A stretch of 64,000 bases of DNA from Plastoroseomonas arctica (GTDB taxonomy: Bacteria; Pseudomonadota; Alphaproteobacteria; Acetobacterales; Acetobacteraceae): the NCBI RefSeq assembly GCF_018128965.1, contig NZ_JAAEDH010000002.1:62001-126000 (forward strand). The letters run 5' to 3'. Below, piece after piece: positions 37,793 through 49,531 of this stretch (positions within the stretch are counted from its first letter, which is position 1; every line of letters starts with the position of its first letter). The position numbers were made by a program, and so were the translations under genes. The notes under the pieces are model-generated. The model was not told the DNA's origin. It did no database searches and saw nothing but the letters and a program-made list of their open reading frames with translations.

Positions 37793-37800
37793 GGGGGCGT

Positions 37801-38096
37801 GAAGAAAGCATGGGGGGCTTTGCCCCCCAAACCCCCCACAAGGATCGTGTCGATCCTGGACCTCCATCTGTTGGTTCTTGGTCTTGGGAGGGGAGTTTCG
37901 CCGAAGGCGAGCCGGGTTGGGGAGGGGGTGCAGCGAGCGCCCTCGATCGAAGGCACACCCTCGACGCACCCCCTCCCCAACCCGGCGCATCACCGCAAAC
38001 ACACCCCTCCCAAACCCAGGACCAACACACGCAGGGGCCCGGGGATCGGCGCGATCCCCGGCGGGGGTTTGGGGGCAGCGCCCCCATGCTTTCTTC
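37801..38096. repeat. Large multi-hairpin palindromic element, copy 1
   Basis: The 296-bp element is an imperfect long inverted repeat. The outermost 16 bp (GAAGAAAGCATGGGGG, 37801-37816) are perfectly inverted at 38081-38096. Each arm holds a G/C hairpin and a mini-hairpin GGATCG-NNN-CGATCC (37842-37856 and 38043-38057). An arm ending in GTTGGT...GGGAGG follows. At the centre a perfect 21-bp inverted repeat lies at 37911-37931 and 37966-37986. Arms match copy 2 in inverted orientation. It separates two ATPase genes of one transporter operon. Confidence 0.9.
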
Positions 38097-38108
38097 AGCC
38101 CCACACGG

Positions 38109-39104
38109 ATGACGCCGATGATCGAATTGCGTGGTGTGTCCCGGCGGTTCGAGAAGAAGCTCGATTTCGCCGGGAAGGTGTTGAAGCGATTGGGCGCGCC
38201 CATCCGAGAGGAGGTGGTGCATGCCGTGGATGGTGTGGACCTCGTGATTGCGAAGGGCGAGGTGGTGGGGTTGGTGGGTGAGTCCGGGTGTGGGAAGTCC
38301 ACCTTGGGGCGGATGGTGGCGGGGATTTTGCCGCCCAGCTCGGGCACGGTGATGCGGCAGGGGCGCGACATTGCGGGTCTGGCGCCGGCCGCGGCGCGCG
38401 AGGCGAAGCTGCGCACGCAGATGATTTTCCAGAATCCGTACGCGTCCCTGAATCCGCGCATGAAGGTGGCGGAGATCGTGGGCGAGGCGCCACGGGTGCA
38501 TGGCATCGTCTCGCGCGCGGATTGCGCGGATTACGTCGATGATCAGCTGCGGCGGGCGGGGTTGGATCCGGCGTTGAAGGCGCGGTATCCGCATCAGTTC
38601 TCGGGCGGGCAGCGGCAGCGGATCGGGATTGCGCGTGCGCTGGCGGTGAAGCCCGACGTGCTGGTGTGTGACGAGGCGGTGGCGGCGCTGGACGTGTCGA
38701 TCCAGGCGCAGATCCTCAATTTGTTCATGAAGCTGCGGCGGGAGCTGGATCTCACCTACCTGTTCATCAGCCATGATCTGGGCGTGGTGGAGCATCTCTC
38801 GGATCGGGTGGTGATCATGTATCTCGGGCGGGTGGTGGAATCGGCACCGGCGGTCGAGGTGTTCGGTAGTCCGAACCATCCCTACACGCAGTCGCTGCTG
38901 GCCGCGGTGCCGCGGATCGAGGCGCGCAAGCGCGCCTTCAAGGTGGTGACGGGGGAAATTCCCTCGCCGCTTAATCCGCCGTCGGGATGTCATTTCCATC
39001 CGCGCTGCCCACATGTCATGGCGCGGTGCCGCGAGGAGCGGCCGGCCTTGCGCGAGATCGCGCCGGGCCGCATCAGTGCGTGCCATCTGAACGACGCACA
39101 CTGA
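38109..39104 (+). CDS. Peptide-type ABC transporter ATPase (DppF-like)
   Basis: The ATPase of about 331 residues has Walker A GESGCGKST, Q-loop IFQNPYASLNPRMKV, signature FSGGQRQRIGIARALAV, Walker B VLVCDEAVAALDVSIQ and the C-terminal oligopeptide extension GCHFHPRCPHVMARC. ATG 38109 is used; 38118 is also possible. Codon use differs sharply from the preceding DppD-like gene: wobble positions here favour G and T, there C. It is the fifth transporter gene, but is separated from the fourth by palindromic element 1. Confidence 0.93.
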   Translation: MTPMIELRGVSRRFEKKLDFAGKVLKRLGAPIREEVVHAVDGVDLVIAKGEVVGLVGESGCGKSTLGRMVAGILPPSSGTVMRQGRDIAGLAPAAAREAKLRTQMIFQNPYASLNPRMKVAEIVGEAPRVHGIVSRADCADYVDDQLRRAGLDPALKARYPHQFSGGQRQRIGIARALAVKPDVLVCDEAVAALDVSIQAQILNLFMKLRRELDLTYLFISHDLGVVEHLSDRVVIMYLGRVVESAPAVEVFGSPNHPYTQSLLAAVPRIEARKRAFKVVTGEIPSPLNPPSGCHFHPRCPHVMARCREERPALREIAPGRISACHLNDAH

Positions 39105-39170
39105 GGGCAACTGCGCGCCGTCTGTGGTGTTCGCCTACCGTGCGGGCTCCGCGCAGAAGGATGTTCTTTC

Positions 39171-40070
39171 GTGAATCGCATCCGCGTCACCCATCGGACG
39201 ACGTATCGCTATGCGCGGCCGGTCCGGCTGCTGCAGCATCGGCTGATGGTGCGTCCGCAGGACAGCCATGATCTGCGCCTGCTGGAAGCGACGCTGGATA
39301 TCGCCCCTGCCCCTGAATCGACGCGCTGGGCGCATGACGTGTTCGGCAATTCGATCTGCCTGCTCAACTGGGACGAGGATGCGCGGACCGAGCGGCTCGA
39401 CATCACCTCCACACTCGCGTTGCAGCATTTTCCTGGTGGCAGCGGGTTGCCGGCCGCGACGCTCGACCCGGGCGCGGAGCTCTACCCCTTCTCCTATGCC
39501 TCCGACGAGGCGGCCGACGTCGCGCGGCTGCGCGAGCGGCACCTGCCGGACGAGGCGCGTGTCGTCGACGCCTGGGCGCGGCGCTTCCTCGGCGACAAGG
39601 GCGAGAGCCGTACCCTCGACATGCTCGCCGCGATGACGCGGACCATCCATGACGAGTTCAAGTACGAGGCGCGCGAGGAGGAGGGCACCAACCCGGCCAC
39701 CGTCACGCTGGCGACCGGGGTCGGCACCTGCCGTGACTTCGCGCTGCTGATGATGGAGGCGGCGCGCGCGCTCGGCTTCGCGGCCCGCTTCGTCACCGGC
39801 TACCTCTATGAAGAGGACGATGTCGAGACACATGGCGGCGGCGCGACGCATGCCTGGTGCTCGATCTACCTGCCCGGTGCCGGCTGGGTGGAATACGACC
39901 CGACCAACGGGCTGATCGCGGGCGCGAACCTCATCCGCGTGGCGGTGACGCGCACGCCGGAGCAGGCGATCCCGGTGGGTGGCGGCTTCGTCGGCGGCGA
40001 GCGCGATTCGCTCGGGCTCGAGGTGGATGTGTCGGTTGAGCCGGACCAGTCCAAGCGCGCAGAGTGCTGA
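39171..40070 (+). CDS. Transglutaminase-like cysteine protease-fold protein
   Basis: The 299-residue protein starts at a GTG. It has the bacterial transglutaminase-like N-terminal beta-region (RVTHRTTYRYARPVRLLQHR) and the core domain with the catalytic triad Cys187 (GVGTCRDFA), His227 (ATHAWCSIYL) and Asp243 (WVEYDPTNG). It lacks a signal peptide. Many relatives are cytosolic peptidases or amidases of unknown substrate. It follows the transporter operon after 66 bp and is convergent with the DUF2269-like gene. Confidence 0.9.
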   Translation: MNRIRVTHRTTYRYARPVRLLQHRLMVRPQDSHDLRLLEATLDIAPAPESTRWAHDVFGNSICLLNWDEDARTERLDITSTLALQHFPGGSGLPAATLDPGAELYPFSYASDEAADVARLRERHLPDEARVVDAWARRFLGDKGESRTLDMLAAMTRTIHDEFKYEAREEEGTNPATVTLATGVGTCRDFALLMMEAARALGFAARFVTGYLYEEDDVETHGGGATHAWCSIYLPGAGWVEYDPTNGLIAGANLIRVAVTRTPEQAIPVGGGFVGGERDSLGLEVDVSVEPDQSKRAEC

Positions 40071-40077
40071 GCGCGGC

Positions 40078-40542
40078 TCAGGGCTTGGCGATCATCACCC
40101 AGGTCGCGGCCACCAGCGGGACGGTCGCGACCAAGCCCCAGAAGATCCAGCGCCGGGCTTCGCGCCAATAGGCCTCGGGGATCGGGCTGCCATCGGCGAA
40201 GCCGCGGGCCATGCGGGCCTGGCGGACCTGGATGGGCACCAGGATGAACAGCCACAGGCACCCCGAAATCACGAACAGCAGCTCGGCATAGATGAGCCAG
40301 TCGGCGCCGAAGGGATGCATGCCGGCGACATAGGCGGCGCCGAAGCCGCCGACGGACAGCAGGACGATCCCGCCACCCGTGCAGAACCAGTCGGTGATGG
40401 TCACCAGGCGCTGGGCATGGGCGATGATGACGGGATTGCCGCCGCGATCGGCGAAGACCTTCCAGATCGAGGTCACGGTGACGTTGCCGAGCAGCAGCAC
40501 CAGGCCGAGCACGTGCAGCGTCAGGAAAACATCATAGGCCAT
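40078..40542 (-). CDS. DUF2269-like integral membrane protein
   Basis: The 154-residue protein has four hydrophobic helices. It opens DVFLTLHVLGLVLLLGNVTVT and contains ITDWFCTGGGIVLLSVGGFG, a loop with RQARMAR and a last helix with WIFWGLVATVPLVAATWVMI. This layout recalls DUF2269 proteins. Function is unknown; several relatives are annotated only by domain. Its start is divergent from the secreted repeat-protein gene with a 222-bp gap containing a hairpin (AAGGCGGG/CCCGCCTT, 40609-40631). Confidence 0.75.
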   Translation of the reverse strand: MAYDVFLTLHVLGLVLLLGNVTVTSIWKVFADRGGNPVIIAHAQRLVTITDWFCTGGGIVLLSVGGFGAAYVAGMHPFGADWLIYAELLFVISGCLWLFILVPIQVRQARMARGFADGSPIPEAYWREARRWIFWGLVATVPLVAATWVMIAKP

Positions 40543-40764
40543 GCGTGTCGCGTCCCCCTGCGCGCGTGTCGCACTTCCCGGCGGGGCTGGCGAGATGGCA
40601 CGCCGATCAAGGCGGGCGCCACACCCGCCTTCGTTTCGCCGCGGCCGGCGCGGCGGCGCCGCAATCGCCGCGAATTGACCTTCGCGCAGCCATCAGGCGG
40701 CCTGGCCGCGGGTGCCAACTCCTGACTGCGCCAAAGCGCAACAACCCACCAAGGAGGGTACCCA

Positions 40765-41166
40765 ATGCGCCAGCTTCTCAAGACGTCCTTCGCCGTGTCC
40801 GCCCTGATGATCGGCCTCTCGGCCGGTGCCATGGCCGCCGGCACCACCGCGCCCGCCGCCACCGGCGCGACCACCACGACCCCGCCCGCCGCGACGGCAC
40901 CGCACGCCACGACCGCGCCGCATGCGACGAGCACGCCCCGCAACCAGGTCCAGCACCCGGCCGCGGCGAGCAGCACCCAGGCGACGCGCCCGGCCACCCC
41001 GGCCAACCCGAGCGGCAGCGTCACCACGCCGCGCGCCGAGGTTCGCCCCGGCACGTCGCCCGCCCCGAGCGCGACCGTCGTGACGCCCCGTGCCGAGATC
41101 CGGCCGGTGACGCCGCAGGCGAGCGCGCCGGCGACCAGCGTTCCCGCCGCGCCGCGCGTGAACTGA
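40765..41166 (+). CDS. Small secreted low-complexity Thr/Ala/Pro protein
   Basis: The 133-residue protein has a signal peptide (MRQLLKTSFAVSALMIGLSAGAM then AAG) and a mature part almost entirely Thr, Ala, Pro and Ser. Short repeats are visible: TAPHAT twice and TPRAE(V/I)RP twice. AAGGAGG lies eight bases before the ATG, a very strong ribosome site, so expression is likely high. A bidirectional-looking terminator follows at 41217-41242. No family is recognised; a structural cell-envelope role is only a guess. Confidence 0.75.
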   Translation: MRQLLKTSFAVSALMIGLSAGAMAAGTTAPAATGATTTTPPAATAPHATTAPHATSTPRNQVQHPAAASSTQATRPATPANPSGSVTTPRAEVRPGTSPAPSATVVTPRAEIRPVTPQASAPATSVPAAPRVN

Positions 41167-41216
41167 GCCTGCGTCGACCGGGGGCTGGTCCCCATGCGGC
41201 CATCGGTTGACCCGGG

Positions 41217-41242
41217 ACGCCCGGCCGCAAGGCCGGGCGTTT
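41217..41242. terminator. Stem-loop terminator between convergent genes
   Basis: ACGCCCGGCC (41217-41226) and GGCCGGGCGT (41231-41240) form a perfect 10-bp stem with a GCAA loop, followed by TT and a TTCC stretch. It lies between the secreted-protein gene (plus) and a Bug-protein gene (minus), and could serve both. Confidence 0.7.
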
Positions 41243-41261
41243 CCGCGTCAGGCGCTTCGCG

Positions 41262-42278
41262 TCACTCGACGCGTGCGCCGACGGCGCGGACCAGCGTCGG
41301 CCAGCGCTCCGCCTCGGAGCGGATATGGGCGGCGAAGGCCTCCGGCCCGGTCCCCGTAACGGCAAACCCCTGGCTGGTCAGCGTCTCGCGCAGCGCCGGA
41401 TCGCGCAGCGCCCGGCCGGTCTCCTCGGCGATGCGGGCGATGATCGGGCCCGGCGTGCCGGCGGGGGCGAGCAGCCCCTGCCAGGTGACGACGTCTAAAT
41501 TCTCGATGCTCGGCACATCGGGGAGGGCCGGGCTCGGCTCGGCCGAGGTAACGGCGAGTGCGCGCAGCCGGCCGCCACGAATATGCTCGATCGCGGCGGG
41601 CAGAGTGACAAAAAGCGCATCGACATGGCCCGCCACCACGTCCAACACGGCGGGGCCGCCGCCACGATAGGGCACATGGGTGAACGCGATCCCGCGCTCG
41701 CGCGCGAACAGGGCGCCCGCGAGATGGCCGATGGAGCCGTTGCCCTGGCTTGCCACCGTCATCGCGCCCTCGGCGCCGCGGGCCGCCGCGACGAAGCCCG
41801 CGAGGTCGCGCACCGGGCTCGCTGGGTTGACCACCAGCACCTGCGGCGCGCGCACCATCTCGATGATTGGGGCGAAGTCGCGCACCGGGTCGTAGCCCAC
41901 GCGCGGATACAGGCCCGGGTTGATGGTCAGCGGGTCGGAGCCGACCAGCAACGTCAGCCCGTCGGGCCGGGCGCGGGCGGTCAACTCGAAGGCGAGGTTG
42001 GACCCGGCGCCGGCGTGGTTCTCCGCCACCACCGGCTGGCCGAGCGCGGGCGAGAGTGCGCGGGCGATGGTGCGGCCGAGGATGTCCAGGCTGCCGCCGG
42101 GCGCGACGGGGATGATGATGCGCACCGCGCGGTCGGGCGCCCACTCGGTGCGGGCGGCGCCGGCCAGCACGCCGGCCTGGGCGGCGGCCTGGGCGCCGGC
42201 GCGGGAAGCGAGCGCGGCGAGGGGAAGCGCGCCCAGCAGGGCGCGGCGGGAGACGGTATGGTTCATGGGGTTGCTCAT
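41262..42278 (-). CDS. Bug/TctC-family binding protein next to Lrp-type regulator
   Basis: This Bug-family binding protein has a Tat-like signal (VSRRALLGALPLAALASRA). VRIIIPVAPGGSLDILGRTI, ARPDGLTLLVGSDPL and VPYRGGGPAVLDVVAGHVDA are family motifs. Starts at 42278 (MSNPMNHT) or 42266 are both possible; no ribosome site decides. It would bind a carboxylate-type solute in the periplasm. It is divergent from an Lrp/AsnC regulator across 76 bp, so that regulator probably controls it. Confidence 0.88.
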   Translation of the reverse strand: MSNPMNHTVSRRALLGALPLAALASRAGAQAAAQAGVLAGAARTEWAPDRAVRIIIPVAPGGSLDILGRTIARALSPALGQPVVAENHAGAGSNLAFELTARARPDGLTLLVGSDPLTINPGLYPRVGYDPVRDFAPIIEMVRAPQVLVVNPASPVRDLAGFVAAARGAEGAMTVASQGNGSIGHLAGALFARERGIAFTHVPYRGGGPAVLDVVAGHVDALFVTLPAAIEHIRGGRLRALAVTSAEPSPALPDVPSIENLDVVTWQGLLAPAGTPGPIIARIAEETGRALRDPALRETLTSQGFAVTGTGPEAFAAHIRSEAERWPTLVRAVGARVE

Positions 42279-42354
42279 CGCTAGTTTTGGAATGTCTTTC
42301 TCCACACGCATGGAATGTGCGCAAGAAGAAGATTATTGTGCTAAGTAGGCCGCC

Positions 42355-42846
42355 ATGAACGATGAAATCGCCCCCAAACGCCCAAGCGCGGAGTTGGACC
42401 ACATCGACCGCGCGATCCTGCGGATGATCCAACGCGACGCCACCCTCTCGCTGGCCGAGATCGCGCAGGAGATCGGGCTGACCCCCACCCCCTGCTGGAA
42501 GCGCATCCGCCGGATGGAGCAGGCCGGCGTTATCACCGCGCGCGTGGCGCTCGTCGCCCCCGCCCTGGTCGGCCTCGACGTCTCGGTCTTCGTTGCGATC
42601 GAGACGGGGGACCATTCCGAAGGCTGGATCGAACGTTTCGCCCAGGTGGTCGCCAAGCGTCCGGAGGTGCTGGCCTGCTGGCGCCTTGGCGGCGATGTCG
42701 ACTACCTGCTGCACGTCATGGTGCCGGACATGGCGGCCTTCGACAGCTTCTACCGCCGCCTCACCGCCGAGGTGCCGAGCCTGCGCAAGGTCACCTCCCG
42801 CTTCGCGATGGAGCGCGTGAAGGAGACCACCGCGCTCCCGATATGA
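42355..42846 (+). CDS. Lrp/AsnC-family transcriptional regulator
   Basis: The 163-residue regulator has the N-terminal winged HTH (LDHIDRAILRMIQRDATLSL, then EIAQEIGLTPTPCWKRIRRM) and the RAM/AsnC ligand domain (VFVAIETGDHSEGWIERF, ACWRLGGDVDYLLHVMVPDM). Members bind DNA as octamers and sense amino acids. It is divergent from the Bug-protein gene, which is a plausible target along with its own promoter. The HTH Pro-Thr-Pro-Cys-Trp segment is common in this group. Confidence 0.93.
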   Translation: MNDEIAPKRPSAELDHIDRAILRMIQRDATLSLAEIAQEIGLTPTPCWKRIRRMEQAGVITARVALVAPALVGLDVSVFVAIETGDHSEGWIERFAQVVAKRPEVLACWRLGGDVDYLLHVMVPDMAAFDSFYRRLTAEVPSLRKVTSRFAMERVKETTALPI

Positions 42847-42891
42847 TCCTGGCGATTTGACCCTGTCGGGTGCGGCGAAGCCCGCTATGAA

Positions 42892-43548
42892 GTGCCGGTG
42901 AAGAATCCAGTCCGAATCGCGCCATCGCTGCTTGCCGCCGATTTCACGCGCCTCGGTGCCGAGGTCGCCGCGATCGAGAAGGCGGGCGCGGACTGGCTAC
43001 ATCTCGACATCATGGACGGCCACTTCGTGCCCAACATCAGCTTCGGCCCAGGGCTTATCAAAGCGCTGCGCCCGTTGAGCGCGATGCCGTTCGACGTGCA
43101 CCTGATGATCGCCCCCGCCGACCCCTACCTGGCCGCATTCGCCGAGGCCGGCGCCGACTGGATCAGCCTGCACCCCGAGGCCGGGCCGCATCTGCACCGC
43201 TCGCTCCAGACGATTCGCGCGCTGGGCAAGAAGGCCGGCGTGGTGCTCAACCCCGCCACACCCATCGCCCATGTCGCGGAAGTGATCGACCTGCTCGACC
43301 TGGTCCTCGTCATGTCCGTGAACCCCGGCTTTGGCGGCCAGAGTTTCATTCGTAGCCAGCTCCAGAAGATCGCGGCGCTCAAGGCGCTGATCGGCGACCG
43401 CGACATCCGCCTCGAGGTCGATGGCGGCGTCACCACCGAAACCGCGCCGCTCTGCGTCGAAGCAGGCGCCGATGTGCTGGTCGCCGGCACCGCAGTCTTC
43501 GCCAAGCCCGACTACGCCACCGCCATCGCCGGGCTGCGCGGATGCTGA
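42892..43548 (+). CDS. rpe: Ribulose-phosphate 3-epimerase
   Basis: The 218-residue TIM-barrel enzyme has [32 protein letters not shown] (metal ligands H37 and D39), FDVHLMI (H70), [14 protein letters not shown] and LEVDGGV. It interconverts ribulose 5-phosphate and xylulose 5-phosphate in the pentose phosphate or Calvin cycle. The GTG at 42892 is used; GTG 42898 is possible. Its stop overlaps the following heparinase-family gene by seven bases, an arrangement often seen in alphaproteobacteria. Confidence 0.95.
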
Positions 43549-45179
43549 AGGGTCTGCTCCGCAGCTTCACCAAGCTGCGCCCCGTCCGCGCGCCCGAAGC
43601 GCCTTCGCGCCCGTTCCGCGACCTCTGGCCCGGCGATGCCGCCCGCGGCGCCCGGCTGCTGCGCGGCGAGTTCGAATATGCCGGTTCCGTCCGCCCGCTG
43701 CTGCCCTCCGACGAGGCCGGCGCGCCGCCGATCGGCTGGGGCGACCAGGATGGCGCGCCGCCCTGGCGCGTCGCCGTGCACAGCTTCTTCTGGCTGCGCG
43801 ACCTGCGCACGCTGGGCTCCGACGCCGCGCGCATCCGCGCCCGCGCGCTCTCGGCGGACTGGCTCGCCATCGCCCACGCCCCGCTCGCCTCCGCCCCCGA
43901 GGTCGTCGGCGCCCGCATCTCCTCCTGGCTCGGCAACTGGGATTTCTTCGCCGCCACCGCCGAGGACGGCTTCCGCCGTGCCATCATGCAGCGCCTGGCG
44001 ACCGATGCGCGCGACCTGATCGCCGCCCTGCCCGCCGAGGCCGCGCATCGCGGCGCCCTCGTCGCGCTCAAGGGCGCGCTGGCCGCCGCCGTCGCCCTGG
44101 ATGACGACGCCTTCCTGCAGCGCTGCGTGCGCTTCCTGCCCCCCGAGCTGGAGCGCCAGTTCCACCCCGATGGCGGCCATATCGAACGCAGCCCCGCCCA
44201 GCAGATGGAGGCCCTGAAGGACCTCATCGAGATCCGCAACCTGCTGCACGGCGTCGAGATCGAAGCCCCGCCCCACCTCACCGTCGCACTCGACCGCGCC
44301 GCCCCCGCGCTGCGCTCGCTCCGCCACGGCGACGGTGGGCTCGCGCTGTTCAACGGCACGCGCGACGAGAACTCCGCCATGGTCGACCTGGTCCTGACGC
44401 AAGGCCAGGCCCGCAGCCGCGCCCCGCTGGTCCTGCCCGAGACCGGCTTCCAGCGCCTGCAGGCCGGCCGTACCCTTGTCATCATCGATTGCGGCGCCCC
44501 CCCGTCCCAGCGCGCCGGCGCCACCGGACCGGGAGGCATCCCCCGCGGCGCCGACCGCTTGGCGCACGCCGGCACCCTCGCCTTCGAAATGTCCGTCGGG
44601 CGCGAACGCATGATCGTCAATTGCGGCGCCGCCCCCGCCGCCGAGGCTGGCTGGCGCGACGCACTCCGCGCCACCGCCGCACACTCCACCCTCACGCTGT
44701 CGGACACCAACAGCGCCGAACTGCGCGATTCAGGCCTCGGCCGGCGCCCCGAACGCGTCGAATCCGAACGGCAGGAAGCCTCGGGCGGCCAACTCCTCGA
44801 ACTCAGCCATGACGGCTACGCCCGCGCCTTCGGCGCCATCCACCGCCGCCGACTCTATCTCTCGGAATCCGGCGACGATCTGCGCGGCCACGACCGCGTC
44901 GAAATGGCCGAAGGCAAACCGCTCCCCGGCTTCGCCGTGCGCTTTCACCTGCACCCCGGCGTCACCGCCTCCGCCCAACAGGACGAGACCGCCGTCCTGC
45001 TCCGCCTGCCGTCGGGCATCGGGTGGCGCCTGCGCGCCAATGGCGCGCGCGTGGCGATCGAAGAAAGCGTGCACCTCGGCTCTGACGCCAAACGGAGCCA
45101 GCAGATCGCGCTGTTCGCCACCGGCGACACCGGGCTAGTGCAATGGGCCATCAGCCGCGTGAGCCTGCCGGCGCCGTGA
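43542..45179 (+). CDS. Heparinase II/III-family protein
   Basis: The 545-residue protein has an alpha-helical N-terminal half ([60 protein letters not shown]). The second half is the beta-rich heparinase II/III-like domain (about 300-520, with [20 protein letters not shown] and [20 protein letters not shown]). Such proteins are polysaccharide lyases or related enzymes of uncertain role. Genes of this type are often linked to rpe in alphaproteobacteria. No signal peptide is visible. Its TGA directly abuts palindromic element 2. Confidence 0.85.
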
Positions 45180-45469
45180 AGGCGGGGGGCTCCGCCCCCT
45201 CGACCCCCGCCAGGGATCGCGCCGATCCCTGGACCCTGGCGTGTGTTGGTCCTGGGTTTGGAAGGTGGGTCCTGGACTTTTATCAGGGCCTGTCATCGGG
45301 AGAGGGTGGCCGGGAGCGATCACCAGATGAGAGCGCGTGACGGCCACCCTCTCCCGATGACAGGCATTCCGGACAGACCCCAGAACCACCCTCCCAAAAC
45401 CAAGAACCAACAAATGGAGGTCGAGGATCGACACGATCCTCGCGGGGTCCAGGGGCAGAGCCCCTGGCC
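45180..45469. repeat. Large multi-hairpin palindromic element, copy 2
   Basis: The element fills the whole gap between two convergent stop codons. It has outer G/C hairpins, the mini-hairpins GGATCG-CGC-CGATCC (45214-45228) and GGATCG-ACA-CGATCC (45425-45439), and diverged arms. Its centre holds a perfect 24-bp inverted repeat at 45289-45312 and 45341-45364. The left arm 45212-45261 matches the reverse complement of copy 1 (38010-38059) at 45 of 50 bases. The right arm 45389-45440 matches the reverse complement of copy 1 (37841-37892) at 49 of 52. Confidence 0.9.
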
Positions 45470-47119
45470 TTACTGCGCCGCCATCCGGCGCAGTGCCGAG
45501 CGCGACACCTTGCCCGAGCTTGTCACCGGCATCTCTGTGAGGAAGGCGAAGTGGCGCGGCGCCTTGTATCCGCCGAGGCGTTCGCGGACATGCTGGCGCA
45601 GCGCATCTTCGAGGGCCGCGTCGGCCGTGACGCCCGCGGCCAAGCGGATGCAGGCCTGCACCGCTTGGCCGCGCTCGGCGTCGGGCACGCCGATCACCGC
45701 GGCCTCGGCCACCGCCGGATGCGCCATCAGCACATCCTCGATTTCAGTCGGCCCGATGCGCGCGCCGCCGGCCTTGATGAGGTCGTCGCCGCGGCCGCGG
45801 TACCAGTAGTAGCCATCGGCGTCGCGGACCGCGAGGTCGCCGGTGCGGATCCAGGGGCCGAGGCGCATGGCCGCGGTGAGGTCGGGCCGGTTCCAGTAGC
45901 CGAGGAAGAGCGTGGGCGTGGTGGGCACGGTGACGATCTCGCCCACCTCGCCATCGGCGATCTCGACACCCGCTTCGTCGACAAGGGCGGCGACGTGGCC
46001 TGGGTATTCCCAGCCCATCGAGCCATGGCGGATGGGGCGCAGCGCGCGGCAATTGCCGATCATGTGGTTGACCTCGGACATGCCGTAGCCCTCGTTCAGC
46101 ACGGTGCCGAGCGCCTCTTCCACCCAGCGGATGGTGCGGACGGGCAGGGGTTCCCCGCCGGTGAAGATGCAGCGCAGGCGAAAGGCGCGGCCCTGCCGCG
46201 GGTGGGCGATCTGCGCCATGCGGTTCAGGCCGGTCGGCAGCAGCAGCGTGTGGGTCACGCCGTGCCGCGCCATGAAATTCAGCGCCCAGTCCGGGTCGAA
46301 GCGGTGGTTGCTGCACACCAGCATCTGGCCGGCCTGGAGCGCGGGGTAGATCGTGTCCACGAGGGCAGCGAGCCAGCCCCAGTCGGCCGGCGTCCACAGC
46401 ACCGCGTCGGGCATGTCGAGCGAGAGGTCGTAGAAGAGTTCGATCGTCGGGCGATAGGCGTGCGGCAGGCTGTGCGCGTGCAGCACGCCCTTGGGCTGGC
46501 CGGTGGAGCCGGAGGTGTAGACCAGCAGCGCGGGCTCATCGGCGCGCGTCGTGACGCACGGGCCGGTCGCTGGCGCGGCGTCGCGCCAGGTGTTGAAGGC
46601 CATCTCGCCCTGCGCGGTGTCGCCGATGACCAGCACGTGTCGCAGGTCCGGGCAGTCCGCGCGGAGGAAGGCCACGGGGCGCCAGGCCTCGGCCTCGGTG
46701 AGCAGGACGGTCGCGCCGCTGTCACGCAGTGCGTGGCGCAGCGTGTCCGGCCCGTAGCGCTGCGACAGCGTCGTCGCGATCGCGCCCAGGCGGTAGGTGG
46801 CCAGGTGCGCCATCACCGTCTCGATCCGCGCATCGGTGTGGATGGCGACGCGGTCGCCGCGCCCGACGCCCAACCCGGTGAGCAGCGTGGCCAGGCGCCG
46901 CACCGCATCGTCGAGACCCGCATAGGTGATGTCGGTGATGGCGCCATCCGCCGCCTCGAAGCGCACCGCGACGCGATGCGCGCGCGGCCCGGTGGCGTGC
47001 AGGCCCAGCGTGTCGGCGGTGATGTTGGCGTGTTCGGGCAGCGGGATGCGCCAGCGGCCGGCCTCGGCCGGCTCCAGACCGAGATCGTGCAGCCTGGCCG
47101 CGAGGCCCGGCTCAGCCAT
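45470..47119 (-). CDS. AMP-forming acyl-CoA ligase
   Basis: The 549-residue ANL-family ligase has the P-loop YTSGSTGQPKGVLHAH, then TPADWGWLAALVDTIYP, FTGGEPLPVRTIRWVEE, LNEGYGMSEVNHMIGNC, IRTGDLAVRDADGYYWYRG and the catalytic Lys region TSSGKVSRSALRR. The TADWGW-type motif places it near acetyl-CoA or medium-chain/aryl acid ligases. It begins eight bases inside the end of the Rieske gene, so it is the third gene of a coupled operon with the Rieske protein and a binding protein. Confidence 0.9.
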   Translation of the reverse strand: MAEPGLAARLHDLGLEPAEAGRWRIPLPEHANITADTLGLHATGPRAHRVAVRFEAADGAITDITYAGLDDAVRRLATLLTGLGVGRGDRVAIHTDARIETVMAHLATYRLGAIATTLSQRYGPDTLRHALRDSGATVLLTEAEAWRPVAFLRADCPDLRHVLVIGDTAQGEMAFNTWRDAAPATGPCVTTRADEPALLVYTSGSTGQPKGVLHAHSLPHAYRPTIELFYDLSLDMPDAVLWTPADWGWLAALVDTIYPALQAGQMLVCSNHRFDPDWALNFMARHGVTHTLLLPTGLNRMAQIAHPRQGRAFRLRCIFTGGEPLPVRTIRWVEEALGTVLNEGYGMSEVNHMIGNCRALRPIRHGSMGWEYPGHVAALVDEAGVEIADGEVGEIVTVPTTPTLFLGYWNRPDLTAAMRLGPWIRTGDLAVRDADGYYWYRGRGDDLIKAGGARIGPTEIEDVLMAHPAVAEAAVIGVPDAERGQAVQACIRLAAGVTADAALEDALRQHVRERLGGYKAPRHFAFLTEMPVTSSGKVSRSALRRMAAQ

Positions 47120-47960
47120 CGGCGGGGACGAGCGTGACCATGCCGTCGGCGGCCACCGCCACGCGCGGCGCCGGTGCCAGGCGGGCGCGGTGGCCATCGA
47201 GGCTCGCACCGGTCCGCGCGTCGAAGCGCCAGCCATGCCAGGGGCAGCGGATCGCGCAGCCATCCTCGACGGGGGCATCCTCCAGCGGCCCGAGCCAATG
47301 CGGGCAGATGGTGGAATGCGCGACCAGCGCGCCATCCTCCAGCGCCACCACGCGGAAGGGGCGCTCGGCGAAAGCCACCACCAGCGGCAGGCGCGGCAGC
47401 AGCGCCGCGACCGGGCCGAGCTCCACCGGCTCGGGCTTCGGGCGGGGTGCGGCGGCCCAGGCGCGGGCGCGGGCCTCGGCCATCTCGCGATGCTGCATCA
47501 TCGCCTCATCCTCGGACCAGAGGCGCTCGCAGCTCGCCATGTATTTTCCGCCGAGGACGGCGAGTTTCTCAGGGCGCATCTCCGGCAGGTAATAGCGCAC
47601 CTCGACCGCGGTACGGTGCGCGTCCAGCGGCGTCATCAGCGTCCAGAAGCGGGTGCCGGCGCCGATGCCCTCCTCGAAGATTGCGGTGTAGCGGTGGCGC
47701 GCGCGATCCACCTCCAGGCGCAGCACCTGTTCGCGATCGGGCGTGCTGGGCGGCCGCGAGAGCCGGATGCGCCAGCCCCAGTCGCCGCTATCGAGGCGCT
47801 CGACGGCCGTGAAATAGCTGTCGTGCAGCGCGGGAAGGTGCTCCCAGTCGAACACGTTCTCGAAGATGCGGTCCACGCTCGCGCCGACCTCGCGCCGGTA
47901 GGTGGCGGCAAGGTGCAGCGCGGGGTCGGCGGCGGTGGCTTCCGGGGTAGTGCTGGTCAT
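47112..47960 (-). CDS. SRPBCC-like plus C-terminal Rieske [2Fe-2S] protein
   Basis: The 282-residue protein has an N-terminal domain (about 15-165) that resembles the SRPBCC/START helix-grip fold: YRREVGASVDRIFENVFDWE, then FWTLMTPLDAHRTAVEVRYY. Its C-terminal domain has the full Rieske motif C219-x-H221-x17-C239-x2-H242 in STICPHW and CPWHGWRFD. In ring-hydroxylating oxygenases the Rieske domain comes first and the catalytic SRPBCC-type domain second. Here the order is reversed and the protein is shorter. A redox or ring-activation role is inferred from the neighbouring acyl-CoA ligase. Confidence 0.85.
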   Translation of the reverse strand: MTSTTPEATAADPALHLAATYRREVGASVDRIFENVFDWEHLPALHDSYFTAVERLDSGDWGWRIRLSRPPSTPDREQVLRLEVDRARHRYTAIFEEGIGAGTRFWTLMTPLDAHRTAVEVRYYLPEMRPEKLAVLGGKYMASCERLWSEDEAMMQHREMAEARARAWAAAPRPKPEPVELGPVAALLPRLPLVVAFAERPFRVVALEDGALVAHSTICPHWLGPLEDAPVEDGCAIRCPWHGWRFDARTGASLDGHRARLAPAPRVAVAADGMVTLVPADG

Positions 47961-49531
47961 GCCGAGACGCGCCGGATGTTCCAGAACAGCGTCGGCCCCT
48001 TGAGCACGCCCTGCACGCTGCGCCGCCAGGCCGTCGGCTGGAAGAACTGGCCGAGCGGGATGTAGGGCAGGTCGGTGAAGGCCTGGGCCTGGATGCGCGT
48101 CGCAATCGCGCGCTGCGCGGCGAGGTCCGGCGCCTGCAGCCATTCCTCGCGCATCCCCTCCAGTGCGGGCGACTCCGGCCAGCCGGCGAAGGCGGCGGCG
48201 CCATGCGCGCGGAGGAAGAAGTTCACGCCCGGATTCATCAGGTCGAGGCCCGAGAGGAAGGTGCAGAACAGGTTCCACCCGCCCTGCGCCGCCGGCCCGC
48301 GATTGGCGCGGCTCTGCAGCACCGTGCCCCAGTCGCTCGGCGTGTAGTCGAGCTCCACGCCGGTGCGGCGCAGCATGTCGGCGGCGACTTCGGTCAGCGC
48401 CTGCACCTGCGGGTAGTCGGCCGGCCCGATCAGCTTCACCCGCTGGCCCGCCAGCACCGCGCGCGCGGCGGCCAGGTCGCGCGGGCCGGTGAGCGCGGCC
48501 ATCCCCGCATCGCTCGCCATCGGCGAGGCGGGCGGGAAGAAGCCGATTCCCGCATTCCACATCGCCGTGTCGGTACCGGCGACCGCGCGCATGTAGTCCG
48601 GCTGCGCGACCGCGGAGAGCAGCGCGCGGCGCATCGCTGGGTCGTTGAAGGGGGGCGTGAGGTGGTTGAAGCGCAGCAGCGCGATGAAGCCGGTGGGGTC
48701 GGGGTTTTCCACCAGGATGTCGCGGTTGCGGCGCAGCAGCGGCAGCAGGTCGGTCGCGGGGTATTCCCACGCATCCACCTCGCCGGTCTGGATCGCGGCG
48801 GCCGAGGTCGCGGCGTCGGGGATGGTGCGCCATTCGACGCGGTCGAAATGCACCACCTTGCCGCCGGCGGTGCTGCTGGCGGCCTCGCCGCGCGGCACGT
48901 AGCGATCGAATTTGGCATAGACGTTGCGCGCGCCGGGCACACGTTCGGCCGCGAGGAAGCGGAACGGGCCGCTGCCCACCATCTCGGTGATGGCGCGGTC
49001 GGGCGGCGTGGCGGCGACGCGCTCGGGCATCATGAAGGCCACCGGTGGCGAGGTTTTCGCCAGCGCCGCGAACAGCATCGGGAAGGGTCGCTTCAGCCGG
49101 AACACGATGTCCCGGTCCCCGTTCGCCGCCAGCTCATCCGTCAGCGCCATGATGGTCTGGCCGAGCTGGTCGCGCGCCGCCCAGCGGCGGATCGAGGCGA
49201 CGGCGTCGCGTGCGCGCACCGGCTCGCCATCATGGAAGACCAGGCCGGGGCGGAGGCGGATGGTGACGCGGCGGCCATCCTCCTCGATGCTGTGGCCCTC
49301 GGCCATCTGCGGCTGCGGGCGGAAGGCCTCGTCCTGGCCATAGAGCTGGTCGAAGATCATATAGCCGTGATTGCGGGTGATGTAGGTCGAGGTGAGGATG
49401 GGATCGAGGATCGAGAGGTCTGAGGCCGGCACGAAGCGCAGCAGGCTCGCCGACTGCGCCCGTGTCGCCCGGGGCAGGGCGGGGGCGGCGAGGGCGCCGG
49501 CGGTGAGGGCCATAATCGTCCTGCGATGCAT
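47957..49531 (-). CDS. Peptide/nickel-type ABC binding protein without adjacent permeases
   Basis: The 524-residue family-5 binding protein starts MHRRTIMALTAGALAAPALP, a signal peptide. Family motifs follow: DLSILDPILTSTYITRNHGY, RLRPGLVFHDGEPVRARDAV and MVGSGPFRFLAAE. No permease or ATPase gene is next to it; instead it heads an operon with the Rieske and ligase genes (4-bp and 8-bp overlaps). This suggests capture of a compound which the downstream enzymes then process. Confidence 0.9.
   Translation of the reverse strand: MHRRTIMALTAGALAAPALPRATRAQSASLLRFVPASDLSILDPILTSTYITRNHGYMIFDQLYGQDEAFRPQPQMAEGHSIEEDGRRVTIRLRPGLVFHDGEPVRARDAVASIRRWAARDQLGQTIMALTDELAANGDRDIVFRLKRPFPMLFAALAKTSPPVAFMMPERVAATPPDRAITEMVGSGPFRFLAAERVPGARNVYAKFDRYVPRGEAASSTAGGKVVHFDRVEWRTIPDAATSAAAIQTGEVDAWEYPATDLLPLLRRNRDILVENPDPTGFIALLRFNHLTPPFNDPAMRRALLSAVAQPDYMRAVAGTDTAMWNAGIGFFPPASPMASDAGMAALTGPRDLAAARAVLAGQRVKLIGPADYPQVQALTEVAADMLRRTGVELDYTPSDWGTVLQSRANRGPAAQGGWNLFCTFLSGLDLMNPGVNFFLRAHGAAAFAGWPESPALEGMREEWLQAPDLAAQRAIATRIQAQAFTDLPYIPLGQFFQPTAWRRSVQGVLKGPTLFWNIRRVSA

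Follow-up and report, generated by a model that had tools for sequence, protein, structure and literature searches.

A composite palindromic element behind stop codons of Plastoroseomonas arctica occupies many of the same gene ends in a sister species in random orientation

Two copies of a composite palindromic element lie in a stretch of 64,000 nucleotides from Plastoroseomonas arctica (contig NZ_JAAEDH010000002.1, positions 62,001 to 126,000), termed the window below. An earlier examination of the letters alone (the sequence-only reading) had described this pair and proposed a mobile or repetitive element. We found about 65 copies in the genome, nearly all of them at gene 3' ends, and elements at many of the same gene ends in a sister species, in either orientation and with other contents. 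On balance, the evidence favors a non-autonomous element that is related in style to REPINs (hairpin-forming doublets of repetitive extragenic palindromic, or REP, sequences) and to miniature inverted-repeat transposable elements (MITEs), is resident at gene 3' ends, and has its sequence replaced in situ through recombination and template switching. From the comparison of the two genomes, we infer that the address is inherited while the sequence and orientation found there are rewritten.

Anatomy and copy number

The element is a quasi-palindrome of about 290 bp composed of outer G/C hairpins, two unlike rib hairpins, two boxes, and a central stem. In the consensus, the A side begins with a GAAGCAAGGC-type end followed by an outer G/C hairpin, the linker ACCCCGC, rib A, and box A; after the central stem with its variable loop come box B, rib B, the complementary linker, an outer hairpin, and the complementary end. 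Both ribs are self-folding and differ from each other in the loop and the adjoining bases. Several features of known repeat classes are present: terminal inverted repeats as in MITEs (ends GAAGCAAGGC / GCCTTGCTTC and variants, complementary within copies as judged by eye) and, as in REPs and REPINs, conserved inverted ends around a variable hairpin-forming spacer and a multi-copy, extragenic occurrence.

The P. arctica genome is a draft of 4.44 Mb, 99% complete, with the window on contig C2. BLAST searches with either window copy, for which the best 40 candidates per genome were scored and the rib pattern served as a cross-check, returned further copies in this genome. After merging, and after exclusion of L017, L037, and L038 as duplicates of other loci, there were 66 entries, two of which are halves of one interrupted copy (L064), giving 65 copies. 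One further candidate, L068, was discarded because it consists of a single rib match that appears to lie in a coding region. In the sister species (G001, a genome of the same genus, about 90% complete), there are at least 42 elements among the matches listed, and all sister-species counts are based on these. Sixty-one P. arctica and 40 sister-species copies were complete enough to be aligned; L163 of P. arctica and L160-L162 of the sister species were found later and stand outside the 66 and the 42.

The A-rib pattern occurs at 61 sites in the P. arctica genome. The GGATCGNNNCGATCC rib is found on the A side of 46 of the 61 alignable copies and on the B side of 47; several of those lacking it have another self-complementary rib, and others show point changes. 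The centers fall into two types: type I is represented by 46 copies and type II by 15 in P. arctica, compared with 37 and 3, respectively, in the sister species. A separate CGACGTATACGTCG-type palindrome, whole or in part, is located within or close to the outer box of L006, L027, L048, and L056 of P. arctica and of L144 in a third species (G002). In L064 (G000:C2:382147-382651), the ribs are about 490 bp apart and enclose a different sequence that looks poorer in G+C.

A chance origin of these structures was rejected. Allowing at most one mismatch, GGATCGNNNCGATCC matched 172 times per strand across the P. arctica genome and 0 times in the reversed control, and the arms of the two window copies match each other at 49/52 and 45/50 positions, exactly as first reported; in 20 shuffled windows, the 52-nucleotide arm reached no more than 32/52. 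Within one copy, these arms agree at only 15/50 and 16/50 positions (ungapped), and copy 1 aligned with gaps to its own reverse complement is 74% identical. The arms thus differ more within a copy than between copies, which upholds the proposal of one defined, asymmetric element, now extended to about 65 copies, the window pair among them. The outcome that the sequence-only reading had named as fatal to its proposal, two copies only and no empty sites, did not occur: there are both further copies and empty sites. At the gathering score, Rfam gave 0 matches in the 64-kb window, and no tRNA was found in it.

Addresses shared with the sister species

Among the 42 sister-species elements examined, 32 have at least one flank matching the flank of a P. 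arctica copy; 27 match the same copy on both sides, 4 match on one side, and 1 (L140) matches different copies on its two sides. Because two P. arctica elements were matched twice, these 32 elements correspond to 30 P. arctica addresses. If 42 and 66 elements were placed independently at about 4200 gene ends, about 0.7 shared addresses would be expected by chance, an estimate that depends on an assumed gene number.

Little else is shared at these sites. The orientation is the same at 17 and inverted at 15 of the 32, and the true partner is the best match at only 1 of 32, with a median rank of 14 of 40. Identity averages 0.757 at shared sites; among copies within a genome, the averages are 0.759 (type I) and 0.825 (type II) in P. 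arctica and 0.772 and 0.799 in the sister species. L134 was excluded from the comparison of identity and center type, its P. arctica site being identical with that of L135. At the remaining 31 shared sites, a type II center in P. arctica faces type I in the sister species at 8, both are type I at 22, and both are type II at 1. The left flank of L140 (G001:C266) is that of P. arctica L039 and its right flank that of L010, suggestive of a rearrangement that ran through two elements. Ectopic recombination would be the simplest account of the shared addresses, the scrambled orientation, the replaced centers, and the L140 junction, and gene conversion is a probable form of the exchange.

Empty sites and remnants

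Presence and absence were called by eye. We searched 23 P. arctica addresses in the sister genome, one by part of its flank and disregarding matches of up to 61 bp, and found 16, of which 3 hold an element, 5 a remnant, and 8 neither. Of 8 sister-element addresses searched in P. arctica, 1 holds a shortened element (L163), 3 hold remnants, and 4 hold none. At 4 of these 8 sites the flanks are 0.9 to 5 kb apart in P. arctica, and at 1 they are split between contigs; the difference at these sites therefore goes beyond the element. In the third species, the element is absent at the 16 P. arctica addresses fetched and at the sites of copies 1 and 2 (18 of the 20 addresses compared); a shorter form stands at the address of L015 and, on one side, at that of L024. 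Presence or absence between relatives is a MITE feature and points to movement of the element, which seems probable from these comparisons.

The shared addresses might also have arisen by independent insertion, through a transposase with strong target choice for the terminator or stop region that struck the same gene ends in each species in random orientation. Such a process would fit the random orientation and the scarce orthologous signal, the rib sequences that differ between species, the existence of empty sites, and the short forms in the third species at the gene ends of L015 and, on one side, L024. It needs, however, about 30 coincident sites; the 18 of 20 addresses that are empty in the third species indicate that these are not universal hot spots, and remnants, left at 5 of the 16 sites found in the sister species, suggest that old insertions are decaying. 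We regard independent insertion as rather unlikely.

Covariation of paired bases

We analyzed covariation in 66 left sides, comprising 58 from P. arctica (3 complete copies were omitted) and 8 from the third species. The outer hairpin and rib together gave a covariation score of 0.173 compared with 0.077 in shuffles (0/500 shuffles reached it). Cells changed on both sides of a pair numbered 66 vs 17 expected, with 5 changed on one side, and pairs changed on both sides numbered 10 vs 6.1 expected (2/500). The mismatch of 1.8% between the central arms of a copy is biased low because the arms were picked for their complementarity, and the comparison of own and other partners serves as the control: complementarity was 17.9 with the own partner vs 13.4 with others on average for type I, and 17.1 vs 10.5 for type I of the sister species.

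Selected RNA folding should leave more G-T than A-C mismatches on the transcribed strand. No such excess was seen in whole elements (405 G-T vs 400 A-C in tandem and 214 vs 221 in convergent contexts) or in the local hairpins (tandem, 6/5 and 11/11; convergent, 5/4 and 4/8), and conservation at the RNA level was rejected. The joint change of paired bases together with the missing G-U signature suggests that pairing is maintained at the DNA level. In yeast, template switching is reported to homogenize the arms of inverted repeats and to invert the spacer (PMC8604942).

Position behind stop codons

With genes called by a simple codon-usage script, the 65 P. arctica copies (L064 counted once) lie in 41 tandem, 23 convergent, and 1 divergent contexts. 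In the 39 complete tandem copies, the distance from the upstream stop to the element is -5 to 37 bp (median 8) and that from the element to the next gene start has a median of 30 bp and reaches 830 bp; the upstream stop is the nearer gene boundary in 30 of the 39. Complete copies in convergent pairs each lie within 41 bp of both stops. The orientation relative to transcription is random in tandem copies (21 vs 20, or 16/15 for one type label and 5/5 for the other). That the window copies face opposite ways, a point of the sequence-only reading, is thus true and at the same time uninformative, given this ratio and the 17:15 between species.

This position raises the possibility of domesticated bidirectional terminators or stabilizers of mRNA 3' ends, kept by selection on RNA structure. 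Besides the 3'-end position with a single divergent case in 65, the hairpins at either end of copy 1 have a terminator-like form directed outward, on both strands. Furthermore, the 20 nucleotides at the exit end contain more T than those at the entry end (5.46 vs 4.39, p 0.001, 61 tandem copies of both species), a difference that flank composition may confound. The terminator scan flagged 10 sites in 20 kb vs 5.7 in shuffles, with both ends of copy 1 among them and copy 2 not. Against an origin in such selection are the lack of a G-U excess, the empty or decayed sites of relatives, an asymmetric element with no strand preference, and the location of copy 1 within an apparent operon, and we judge it unlikely. 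A weak role of this kind is likely: the outward-directed outer hairpins with their pyrimidine-rich tail may confer a weak bidirectional 3'-end function, by termination or 3' stabilization.

Relation to known repeats

BIMEs (bacterial interspersed mosaic elements) and REPs of enterobacteria occur at gene 3' ends, also within operons, and are built of mosaic modules. The present element resembles them in its location at gene 3' ends, also inside an operon, and differs in its layout. ERIC/RU, YPAL, and NEMIS are bacterial MITE-like imperfect palindromes of 100-300 bp in intergenic regions, and the present element appears similar in size, palindromy, and intergenic site.

REPINs were described in Pseudomonas fluorescens as REP doublets forming a hairpin (PMC3116915). 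They resemble our element in being dispersed, extragenic, and non-autonomous, with conserved inverted ends and a variable spacer showing compensatory changes (PMC3116915). The element differs in that its genome has no RAYT (REP-associated tyrosine transposase) and its ribs no GTAG tag, in its length (about 200-300 bp), in bearing several hairpins on each side that fold on themselves, in the unlike ribs of its two sides, and in a position directly behind stops. GTAG REP ends are reported often to supply the stop codon of flanking open reading frames, and CGTC-tagged repeats to be missing from Acetobacteraceae, the family of P. arctica (PMC3733652).

Could RAYT move this element as a true REP or REPIN family? 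The inverted conserved ends, the hairpin-forming variable spacer, and the compensatory changes are those of REPINs (PMC3116915). The sequence-only reading had suggested looking for a RAYT or IS200-like transposase; PF01797 (Y1_Tnp) was not found in the one P. arctica draft genome (0/1), although 5 of 14 control genomes were positive. Within 14 nucleotides of the rib in 56 rib-bearing copies, GTAG occurs 0 times, CTAC once, and CGTC and GACG 3 times each, so that no tag is apparent. With 290 bp and four or more hairpins in addition, mobilization by RAYT is very improbable. The REP/BIME-like character once proposed therefore stands for the placement and falls for RAYT and GTAG: without these, the element does not pass as a REP or REPIN despite its similar layout. 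The nearest described entity is the REPIN, and the placement recalls BIMEs.

Published genome surveys extend to an acetobacterium, Lichenicola cladoniae. They count many inverted repeats, for instance 1,369 REPs in that species, and find them enriched after stop codons (RepRanger, PMC12306157; PMC13155455). Neither the composite element nor its behavior between species is described in the consulted parts of these two surveys (PMC12306157, PMC13155455), and a search of the open-access literature with the terms used, covering titles and the openings of abstracts, returned no description of the element.

Distribution in the family and beyond

Across genome contigs, the combined rib-plus-box pattern matched only Rhodospirillales bacterium RYN_442, apparently the sister species G001, in a set that possibly leaves out the P. 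arctica genome. By itself, the rib was present in 5 of 100 relatives, and only P. arctica and the sister species have numerous copies. A looser outer-hairpin pattern matches 167 of 299 genomes and 65 of 102 genera of the family, often with one or two matches and at most 192; one or two mean little, because reversed controls give 0 to 3. At least 20 matches occur in about 33 genomes, as counted by eye.

We read by eye 32 loci from other genera, the first ones listed rather than a random draw. Side hairpins on both sides were recognized in 24 (6 of these have no long central stem), 7 were partial, and L206 was set aside as what looks like a chance match of the outer-hairpin pattern. The 24 belong to genera g24, g49, g55, g102, and g136, with a long central stem in g24, g102, and g136. 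Of 32 pattern matches tested, 27 were found no more than 60 bp past the stop of an open frame of at least 240 nucleotides, vs 265 of 1280 random positions. The number of ribs is variable, as L213 and L215 (genus g136) bear three hairpins on each side.

Carriage by plasmids or phages was not supported. Plasmid searches with one P. arctica element and with a third query element gave no match, a query element from another genus matched two Streptomyces plasmids and one Pseudoroseomonas plasmid over short, partial stretches, and one pattern scan of viral contigs gave no match. L216, on the Streptomyces plasmid NZ_CP108415.1 and hence in an actinobacterium, shows tandem G/C hairpins with ACCC-type linkers, much like the outer boxes.

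The two copies in the window

Both elements were confirmed with their parts when the sequence was re-read. Copy 1 (37800..38097, plus strand, A side first, ends approximate) separates two tandem ATPase genes for oligopeptide transport in what appears to be an opp-type operon. Its left outer hairpin (37811..37829) is terminator-like on the minus strand, with a T-rich tail reading outward, and its right one (38070..38086) is terminator-like on the plus strand. Between them, on the plus strand, the rib pattern locates rib A (GGATCG-TGT-CGATCC, 37842..37856) and rib B (GGATCG-GCG-CGATCC, 38043..38057). Comparison of the copies defines box A, the conserved arm adjoining rib A (37860..37891), while sequence and consensus define a small internal hairpin of the center (37898..37910) and box B (38004..38038). 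The arms of its type I central stem, from the arm analysis with positions taken from the sequence, are at 37911..37931 and 37966..37986.

Copy 2 (45180..45469, minus strand, hence B side first on the plus strand) has a type II center and fills the gap between two convergent stops, the left TGA ending at 45179 and the right stop starting at 45470; its neighbors are a heparinase-like gene and an AMP-binding gene. The outer hairpins, read from the sequence, are at 45185..45199 and 45449..45467 (plus strand), the central arms, obtained as for copy 1, at 45288..45312 and 45341..45365 (plus strand). On the minus strand are the ribs located by the rib pattern, rib B at 45214..45228 and rib A at 45425..45439, and box A, from the comparison of copies, at 45390..45423.

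Minus-strand genes (AMP-binding, Rieske, solute-binding protein) occupy 45470-49513, between copy 2 and a glycosyltransferase gene. In the sister species this glycosyltransferase gene follows the heparinase-like gene after one element, and in the third species it follows directly, so that copy 2 marks a breakpoint.

Proposed mechanism and its weak points

The element would resemble a fishbone, in which side hairpins project from a long imperfect stem. Copies would arrive by transposition behind stop codons, after which the address would be inherited and its contents overwritten from other copies by ectopic recombination. Because the two halves resemble each other, a donor could pair in either orientation, so the orientation would be scrambled. 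Template switching inside the hairpin would keep the arms complementary and could flip the interior. A weak bidirectional 3'-end function of the outward-directed outer hairpins would make the position tolerable.

Several observations weigh against this mechanism of residence and rewriting. With regard to mobility, empty-site flanks are 73-93% identical with diverged junctions in which a target duplication is unreadable, and a search for Y1_Tnp among the transposases identified no mobilizer. As for rewriting, same-orientation pairs argue against full turnover: they retain some outer-end similarity (median ranks 8 and 4 of 40, with 12 bp of flank in the comparison), and in 17/17 the outer ends are colinear, a result that equal orientation partly explains. 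In inverted pairs, the outer ends keep the flank order in only 6/15, and a simple interior inversion between fixed ends is not supported by that count. Further pair types are not raised (16 vs 15.7 in shuffles), type II central arms show no copy-specific complementarity (24.5 vs 24.2), and only 7/46 type I, 11/37 sister type I, and 1/15 type II copies have their own partner as the strictly best match. Finally, a place inside the opp-type operon is hard to reconcile with strong termination by copy 1, and copy 2 was not flagged as terminator-like.

We also tentatively consider a family-wide class of near-palindromic elements, most of whose turnover takes place without a dedicated transposase, with fixed addresses behind genes, mutual overwriting in either orientation, and a homogenized version at the inherited sites of each species; homologous recombination and template switching in hairpins would be the means of overwriting.

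Concerted evolution of bacterial repeats is a long-open question in the REP literature. Shared addresses combined with randomized orientation and replaced contents offer a direct measure of it. That about 33 genomes in the family have high counts suggests that part of gene-end architecture has been overlooked, and the elements also mark points of rearrangement, as suggested by at least one junction (L140).

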